This document shows positions 30,424 through 32,707 of a stretch of DNA of 33,247 bases, one piece after another. How positions within the stretch are numbered: position 1 is the first letter of the stretch; the number at the start of each line of letters is the position of its first letter. Both the position numbers and the translations under genes were made by a program. The stretch spans positions 1 to 33,247 of the forward strand of contig SVJR01000014.1 in the NCBI GenBank assembly GCA_015068845.1, read 5' to 3'. Below the pieces are notes generated by a model. It did not search any database. It saw only the letters and a program-made list of their open reading frames with translations, and had not been told where the DNA came from. Source of the DNA: Oscillospiraceae bacterium (GTDB taxonomy: Bacteria > Bacillota > Clostridia > Monoglobales > Monoglobaceae).

Positions 30424-30831
30424 TTAATAATTATAGAATTTGTGCACGATTTGGATGCTATTGATTTTTCTTTTTATGAGAAAATGTTTGATTAAAAACT
30501 CTATACTCATAATTACCAAACAACTAATAAAGTGAATAGTGGTTGATATAAAATATGTTAAATCTCCCTCTAAATCATACCATATTTGTTTATCATCCAA
30601 GCTACGAAAATATAGTTGCCCATTTATGTACATTCCTATTGAAGATGCGAACAAAAGAAGCAAGCAGTAAACAAATAATTCTTTTTTACTTCGGCTTAAA
30701 ATTAAATTCACTACCGACAACCCAAAGGTAATTACCCATATTATTATCATGAATTTTGTTCCGACATTTCCCAATATTATACAAGGGAGAATTATTATAA
30801 GGTTCAAAATAAATAAAATCCAATTTCTCAT
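30424..30831 (-). CDS. Small four-segment membrane protein, not recognised
   Basis: A 135-residue protein with four hydrophobic helices (about 3-23, 27-46, 50-70, 96-118) and a basic C-terminus (KHFLIKRKINS). I do not recognise a family. I use the ATG at 30831, with GGAG 9 bases upstream, 14 bases after the four-helix-bundle gene; a longer reading would overlap that gene. The DNA is visibly richer in A and T than its neighbours, with codons such as ATA, TTA and AAA prominent, which suggests it came from elsewhere with the preceding gene. Function unknown. Confidence 0.65.
   Translation of the reverse strand: MRNWILFILNLIIILPCIILGNVGTKFMIIIWVITFGLSVVNLILSRSKKELFVYCLLLLFASSIGMYINGQLYFRSLDDKQIWYDLEGDLTYFISTTIHFISCLVIMSIEFLIKHFLIKRKINSIQIVHKFYNY
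30430..30435 (-). promoter_or_regulatory. Possible -10 for the ECF S-component gene
   Basis: TATAAT on the minus strand 30 bases before the ATG, overlapping the end of the upstream gene. No good -35 is visible. If active, the ECF-NhaC genes could be expressed without the upstream cassette. Confidence 0.3.
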
Positions 30832-30845
30832 CTTATGTATCTCCA

Positions 30846-31202
30846 CTATTTTAAATTTTCTTTCACTGTGTTGATTGACGAAATCAACATCCTGCGAATC
30901 TGTCCGCAATTATTTATTGTTAATTTATATTGCTCGTTGTCTATATATCCTGTTCTGTTTAGAAGTTCCAACCAATATTCTGACTCATAACATTCTTTTA
31001 AAGCTATTTGCATTTTTGAAATAAAATCAGCAGTCCCATGAGCATATTTTGATTCGTGAATATTAGCACCGATTGATGTGCCTGAACGCATCAGTTGATT
31101 TGTTAATACACACTCTCTTTTTGTTTCTTTTATGTTCTTACACATATTTATAATTTCAACTGCAAAATCTTTTGCTTTATCAAGCATAATGCTTTCTGCC
31201 AT
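30846..31202 (-). CDS. Four-helix-bundle protein (S23 / 23S rRNA intervening-sequence protein family)
   Basis: A 118-residue helical protein. The segment TNQLMRSGTSIGANIHES (about 37-54) followed by DFISKMQIALKECYESEYWLELL is the signature of the S23/IVP family. Its best-known relatives are ORFs within rRNA intervening sequences and the Avd accessory proteins of diversity-generating retroelements; the pentameric bundle has a basic face that can bind nucleic acid. Here it is not in an rRNA gene and no reverse transcriptase is nearby. The ATG at 31202 has AGGA nine bases upstream; a TTG start six codons earlier is less likely. The gene follows a 180-base hairpin-rich leader. Role unknown; RNA or DNA binding is plausible. 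Confidence 0.85.
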   Translation of the reverse strand: MAESIMLDKAKDFAVEIINMCKNIKETKRECVLTNQLMRSGTSIGANIHESKYAHGTADFISKMQIALKECYESEYWLELLNRTGYIDNEQYKLTINNCGQIRRMLISSINTVKENLK

Positions 31203-31228
31203 ATACTCACATCCTACCAATTTCTTTT

Positions 31229-31362
31229 AGCTAAATTTTGCAACAAGTTGCAAAGCTAAATTATTTCGCTTTGCCCCATAGCTAAATAACTCCTTCGGAG
31301 TAGCTAAATTAAATTCGCCATTAGCGTGCGAAGCACATTTAGCTGCCGCAGGCAATTTAGCT
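31229..31362 (-). other. Hairpin array in leader of the four-helix-bundle gene
   Basis: Reading minus, the word AGCTAAAT or GCTAAAT occurs twice and then its complement ATTTAGCT four times. Between these constant words sit different short stems: TGCC/GGCA (31344-31354), GTGC/GCAC (31327-31336 region), ACTCC/GGAGT (31289-31301) and TTTGCAAC/GTTGCAAA (31237-31254), plus one decayed module (31263-31279). The constant words can also pair with each other, giving a nested multi-branch fold. It ends 26 bases before the start codon. Confidence 0.8.
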
Positions 31363-31416
31363 GAATAGATTTAACTATGTTAAATCTATTCTACCACGAA
31401 CGGCATAATTTGACAA
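31363..31416 (-). promoter_or_regulatory. Promoter with overlapping 13-bp dyad before the hairpin leader
   Basis: Minus strand: TTGTCA (31411-31416), 17 bases, TAGAAT (31388-31393) with TG one base upstream (extended -10). A perfect 13-bp inverted repeat, GAATAGATTTAAC (31363-31375) and its complement (31379-31391), with a 3-base centre, covers most of the -10 and the predicted start near 31381. This is the geometry of a repressor site; a hairpin role is also possible. Confidence 0.75.
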
Positions 31417-31457: not shown

Positions 31458-31498
31458 AGCAAAAAAGATATCCTCATATAAGGATATCTTTTTTTGCT
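31458..31498. terminator. Terminator after the 42-codon gene (works both ways)
   Basis: AGC, a run of A and GATATCCT (31458-31474) pair with AGGATATC, a run of T and GCT (31481-31498) around CATATA. On the minus strand it directly follows the stop of the 42-codon gene. Its sequence closely resembles the hairpin at 32661-32707. Confidence 0.88.
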
Positions 31499-32660: not shown

Positions 32661-32707
32661 GAAATAGCGAAAAAGACATCCAAAATGGATGTCTTTTTCG
32701 CTATTTC
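32661..32707. terminator. Bidirectional terminator after the ZIP gene
   Basis: Perfect 21-bp stem (32661-32681 with 32687-32707) and a 5-base loop, with A and T runs inside the arms. It lies 35 bases after the ZIP stop and would end that transcript. It also abuts the leader copy 2 start codon on the minus strand. Confidence 0.9.

Follow-up and report, generated by a model that had tools for sequence, protein, structure and literature searches.

The window, as we call the whole stretch of 33,247 nucleotides that was analysed, carries on its minus strand an S23 (23S rRNA-IVP) four-helix-bundle gene (30846..31202) encoding 118 aa from its ATG. A preliminary description of this DNA had placed an S23-family gene here, and the product is a clear member of the family, scoring 98.8 bits against PF05635 (curated cut-off 33.8) and 114.4 bits against TIGR02436 (cut-off 24); searched against PDB, the family profile matched 2RLD (E 2e-43) and 2GSC (0.001). 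On the same strand, 3' of S23, lies a small hydrophobic ORF (30424..30831; 135 aa from ATG, 161 aa from TTG), which had no match in Pfam, NCBIfam or PADLOC and is probably cargo. Small, mutually different ORFs (hydrophobic proteins, a kinase-like ORF) were also seen directly 3' of S23 at loci L016, L192, L195, L204 and L205; these ORFs, unrelated among loci, look like cargo. A putative right end or outward promoter (..AGCATCCAAATCGTGCACAAATTCTATAAT; 30430..30462, minus strand) is placed ahead of an ECF transporter gene and resembles, by a blastn match, the right flank of the gene-less copy L012.

Upstream of the S23 gene, the minus strand reads in order: promoter, dyad H0, two copies of AGCTAAAT, apex, four copies of ATTTAGCT, S23 gene. 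The promoter is sigma-70-like (TTGTCA-17-TAGAAT, 31388..31416), with 10 of 12 consensus bases and an extended TG. The last four bases of its -10 fall within the 5' arm of H0, a perfect dyad with 13-bp arms (GAATAGATTTAAC-ATA-GTTAAATCTATTC, 31363..31391) at the foot of the first word; both the promoter and the dyad burying its -10 are found where the preliminary description had put them. A -10 box (TAGAAT or TATAAT) abutting H0 recurs at L012, L050, L081, L202, L192 and L205, and the H0 of L050 and L081 is nearly identical to that of the window.

What follows is a palindromic hairpin array (31229..31362, minus strand) of two left words GCTAAAT, an apex and four right words ATTTAGC. AGCTAAAT occupies 31355-31362 and 31337-31344, and ATTTAGCT occupies 31302-31309, 31280-31287, 31254-31261 and 31229-31236. 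On this strand, the words are separated by hairpins TGCC/GGCA (31345..31354) and GTGC-TTC-GCAC (31326..31336), the apex GCTAATGGCGAATTTA (31310..31325), hairpin ACTCC-GAA-GGAGT (31288..31301), an imperfect hairpin with GA-rich internal mismatches (31262..31279) and, at the right end, hairpin TTTGCAAC/GTTGCAAA (31237..31253). All words and stems previously reported were recovered, and the imperfect hairpin adds a fifth spacer absent from the earlier list. The RNA fold prediction proposed there as a check gave a z-score of -2.88, one of 200 shuffles being equally stable. Further out, strong bidirectional terminator-like hairpins flank a ZIP transporter gene (31461-31494 and 32666-32706, the second recognised by eye).

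The canonical element, about 170-180 nt long, has four GCTAAAT words to the left of the apex and four ATTTAGC words to its right, and every interval between neighbouring words holds a hairpin of its own. In full copies, the complement of the apex is found in word 1 together with the 5' arm of hairpin 1; in the window, hairpin 1 has been deleted. With six words and two left modules missing, the window copy is a deletion derivative of the eight-word form.

Dispersal and genomic position of the arrays

The window leader is one copy of a repeat widespread in gut Clostridia. In the source genome, 52 AGCTAAAT words were counted on both strands versus 16 for the control, most of them in six clusters, and at least six array copies are present, yet only two S23 genes. 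Of 60 related genomes, 8 matched a three-word pattern and none matched its reversed control, so that the arrays exceed chance expectation; a genome-wide pattern scan yielded at least 118 stretches, to which Clostridia of the rumen and gut contributed many. Four Bacteroidota loci (L087, L088, L090 and L139) were set aside, their alternating ATTTAGCT/AGCTAAAT words marking a different repeat. A viral origin was likewise dismissed: in each of the 77 stretches picked out by the pattern scan of viral contigs, the pattern matched just once, on one strand, which was judged to be chance. At the Rfam gathering threshold, only tRNAs were detected in the window and in L009-L013, so that the array was not recognised as a known structured RNA family.

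For comparison, we used 68 oriented full or partial arrays from gut and rumen Clostridia, taken from among the matches listed after removal of alternating repeats. Within this set, the majority of copies are gene-less and their flanks are unrelated. Like repeats of the REP/REPIN type, they are dispersed and consist of hairpins that have a constant word at the foot. Ten of these 68 listed arrays begin 31-43 nt behind a tRNA gene, all on the same strand as the gene, and in none of the 68 does the array lie on the opposite strand to the tRNA or precede it. Where a copy is of the tRNA type, the terminator hairpin of the tRNA is its H0; one array (L180) is placed behind tmRNA, and others come after a promoter whose -10 abuts H0. 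Several word families may occur within one genome, and at L037 and L101 arrays with different words stand side by side. At L092 (5926-6398), behind a tRNA-Val terminator, a tandem duplication of the array plus a truncated S23 adjoins an intact array-S23 unit.

The fixed same-strand place after tRNA terminators recalls BIME/REP repeats, which likewise follow genes, and might mean that S23 genes have adopted as their leader a host repeat that serves the chromosome by insulating terminators, in tRNA 3' end metabolism or as nucleoid or gyrase sites. We consider this very improbable, as the arrays are patchy across related genomes, several word families share one genome and each word follows an S23 lineage (see below).

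Conservation of hairpins, words and apex

For each of six hairpins, pairing was scored as the Watson-Crick fraction of the four outermost pairs; exchanging arms among copies served as the control. For hairpins 2-6 this fraction was 0.86-0.93, versus 0.46-0.66 for swapped arms; hairpin 1 is nearly invariant (0.96 versus 0.91) and therefore uninformative on pairing. In an alignment of 33 sequences, 22 of 48 predicted pairs had changed on both sides. The stems thus covary strongly among homologues, and a lack of such covariation, named in the preliminary description as grounds for giving up its reading, was not observed. The earlier statement that the stems are conserved in structure rather than in sequence is thereby supported. 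The constant words hardly vary and are conserved in sequence. Pairing of word with word into a nested ladder was rejected: within the AGCTAAAT family, mutated words are uncompensated, and the ladder is therefore unproven. Taken together, word 1 and the 5' arm of hairpin 1 are matched exactly, as reverse complement, by the apex over 9-12 nt in 48 AGCTAAAT arrays and over 10-12 nt in 13 CGATAT arrays, whose letters differ from those of the AGCTAAAT family. Apex complementarity was seen by eye in other word families as well.

Near-perfect stems with rare wobble pairs, together with uncompensated mutations in the words, would also agree with quasipalindrome correction, that is, template switching during replication. 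Covariation would then be unselected, and only the words would be functional, as double-stranded binding sites. To us this is the least credible of the explanations considered; the order of hairpins, the complementarity between apex and hairpin 1 in two word families and the recurring loop classes all suggest a selected structure.

The loop classes and mismatches bear on whether the array works as DNA or as RNA. Triloops are mostly closed by C-G. Right-half loops follow R-N-A (R = purine, N = any; mostly GNA) and left-half loops are their complements, TNY; the loops of the two halves mirror each other, which gives each half the same reading when followed outwards from the apex. In DNA, C(GNA)G is an unusually stable type of loop. 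Among 1020 pairs, G-T and A-C mismatches were equally rare (16 and 12); G-U is thus in no excess over A-C, on which ground selection on RNA only was rejected. That the hairpins act as DNA is favoured by the two-fold symmetry, by the equality of G-T and A-C mismatches and by the C(GNA)G loops. In the right half, however, GA/AG mismatches outnumber TC/CT by 51 to 3. This excess and the fixed orientation to tRNA genes, both strand-specific, could point to RNA, and they speak against a purely symmetric DNA site.

Association of arrays with S23 genes

Among 30 S23 genes chosen by protein family alone, the 400 nt upstream contained a two-sided word array in 12 cases, versus one of 3000 dinucleotide shuffles. 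Downstream of 35 S23 genes no array was detected, and 11 of 192 neighbouring ORFs had one, the loci having been selected in part for their arrays. That related arrays might be missing upstream of other S23 genes was the second objection foreseen in the preliminary description, and it falls away with their recurrence. The strict detector passes over AGTGATATT arrays and truncated ones; these were assigned by eye. Inspected in this way, five more S23 genes from the order of the source genome have variant or truncated arrays, and a different palindromic leader is present at eight, of which seven stand behind a tRNA. At some S23 genes (e.g. L179, L181) the array is absent. In the wider phylum, an array-like leader was found at one of 30 S23 genes, the other leaders examined being low-complexity or rRNA/RNase P-like by eye.

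Several other settings of S23 were noted. At L189, L190, L191, L193, L194, L196 and L206, a tRNA and its terminator are followed by a long low-complexity palindrome (e.g. acttattacctattcac...gtgaataagg) and then S23. RNase P RNA-like sequence directly upstream of S23 at L228 and L231 (by eye) suggests an insertion outside rRNA resembling an intervening sequence (IVS). Apparent 23S rRNA sequence precedes S23 at L221, L226, L230 and L235, as in classical IVS (by eye). In Spirochaetota, Bacteroidota and other Bacillota (L378, L382, L218, L215), S23 comes after short tandem repeats (e.g. gtgattagtgatta), which are not arrays.

Arrays of the same build but with other words (TCGATAT, GCGATAT, AGTGATATT, TGAAATA) accompany other S23 lineages. 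Two unrelated gut scaffolds show the pairing in independent data: MT835815 carries a tRNA, a AGTGATATT array and S23, and MT835590 carries a TGAAATA array and S23. In the S23 tree, the proteins associated with the three best-sampled words, AGCTAAAT, TCGATAT and GCGATAT, each form one supported clade (support values 97/89, 100/97 and 100/98). Ten changes of word label are needed on the tree versus 26.8 for shuffled labels (0 of 200 shuffles as low), and the words of the two sister clades are one base apart. Two S23 lineages with different words coexist in the source genome. From this co-diversification of word and protein we infer that the S23 protein binds the array, which is thus its candidate ligand.

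The preliminary description had considered autoregulation. As an RNA leader, the structured 5' UTR would bind the S23 protein, which would thereby control its own translation; dispersed copies would then be decoys or relics. The alignment of promoter, array and Shine-Dalgarno in the window, the co-diversification of word and protein and the strand-specific GA mismatches would all fit such a leader. Most arrays, however, do not stand before an S23 gene, the words do not covary and G-U is in no excess, leaving simple autoregulation through an RNA leader unsupported; the two-fold symmetric build and the ten listed arrays (of 68) just behind tRNA terminators argue against it as well. We regard it as distinctly improbable.

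A proposed S23-associated mobile element

The other proposal of the preliminary description, that the array belongs to a mobile element carrying the gene, fits best, since most copies are gene-less and dispersed. Within the AGCTAAAT lineage, S23 proteins are 75-89% identical between hosts, different families among them. Together with the dispersed gene-less copies, the side-by-side arrays with different words and the variable ORFs, this identity suggests a mobile element with cargo. We therefore think it probable, though well short of certain, that array and S23 make up a small mobile element, the array being its cis part, S23 the matching trans part and the gene-less copies non-autonomous.

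According to this model, the cis part would comprise H0, hairpins joined by a constant word, the apex and hairpins joined by the complementary word, in two-fold symmetry. The trans part would be the four-helix-bundle S23 protein, encoded directly 3' of the array and optionally followed by small cargo ORFs. The S23 protein of each lineage would recognise arrays with its own word, while the hairpins would count as structure, and gene-less arrays would spread in trans like REP or MITE repeats. Preferred landing sites would be the 3' feet of hairpins behind tRNA/tmRNA terminators, or promoter-proximal dyads. The working form may be single-stranded or cruciform DNA, and the replication or recombination machinery of the host would exchange the strands.

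As for direct traces of movement, a direct repeat of the left boundary flanks 7 of 65 copies versus 5 of 322 controls, several of the seven being tandem duplications. Searches with neighbouring proteins (the ECF transporter, the L009 neighbour) gave no close orthologous locus and hence no clean empty site.

Dependence on two kinds of enzyme was considered and rejected. No reverse transcriptase (PF00078) match was found in the source genome (79% complete) or in most array-rich relatives, these genomes being incomplete. Y1 transposases are present in the source genome and some others; no match was found in the array-rich but incomplete genomes G003, G007, G009, G042 and G049. As both enzymes are inconsistently present, we propose that S23 confers specificity and that enzymes of the host carry out strand exchange. 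Alternatively, the array might owe its movement to an unrelated transposase or to recombination by the host, with S23 as a hitchhiker or an accessory (in annealing or regulation) that does not determine specificity. S23 has no recognisable catalytic site and is not known to be catalytically active; the Y1 transposases just mentioned and genome G056 (85% complete), with arrays and no S23 match, would also agree with a passenger role. The array-rich genomes devoid of Y1 matches stand against it, as do the match between word and S23 clade and the fact that no other gene was seen recurring at the 3' edge of the array. We find such a role for S23 unlikely.

A more far-reaching version of the mobile-element model can be offered only tentatively. 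A non-enzymatic ring of four-helix-bundle S23 proteins might read the lineage-specific word in a symmetric DNA hairpin array while host replication or repair exchanges the strands, which would make this a new class of minimal mobile element, and the same principle might explain the mobility of rRNA IVS.

Comparison with known systems

Together, array and S23 seem to form a small mobile element of a kind not yet described; no description of an S23 hairpin-array element was found in the open-access papers searched. Hairpin ends, gene-less derivatives and small size are shared with IS605/IS200 and MITE-like non-autonomous elements, but no HUH transposase is linked to the array element, which has up to eight words. 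The accessory protein Avd of diversity-generating retroelements (DGR) is a four-helix pentamer with a fold related to S23 and has a nucleic-acid role alongside a retroelement, from which the present case differs in the lack of reverse transcriptase matches described above.

The nearest known kind is the rRNA IVS with S23. As in the S23-encoding IVS of 23S rRNA (e.g. in Coxiella burnetii, PMC4990558), an S23 gene is part of a structured insert that lies within or next to a gene for non-coding RNA, and mobility has been proposed. Some S23 loci elsewhere in the phylum look rRNA-embedded by eye. IVS, however, are located within rRNA and excised by RNase III, whereas the array element is found behind tRNA/tmRNA terminators or promoters and has an eight-word hairpin array, gene-less copies and lineage-specific words; with Rfam, no rRNA was detected in the window or around the five other copies in the source genome. 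Both the function of S23/IVP proteins, which were discovered in rRNA intervening sequences, and the origin of those sequences have been described as unclear (PMC4990558). The pairing with arrays offers a function to test for the S23 family, which has none assigned: the lineage word and hairpin array are a concrete candidate ligand, with several natural specificity variants as controls in binding or mobility assays.

Finally, the arrays resemble REP/REPIN repeats and their RAYT (Y1) proteins (for REP families, see PMC3733652) in being dispersed hairpins with a constant foot word, mostly gene-less and apparently served in trans by one protein. They differ in that no Y1 enzyme is linked to the array, the partner is a four-helix bundle, and each unit contains many different hairpins in two-fold symmetry. 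If the proposed model is true, it would describe a partnership of protein and repeat like that of RAYT and REP, built on a protein without known transposase chemistry.
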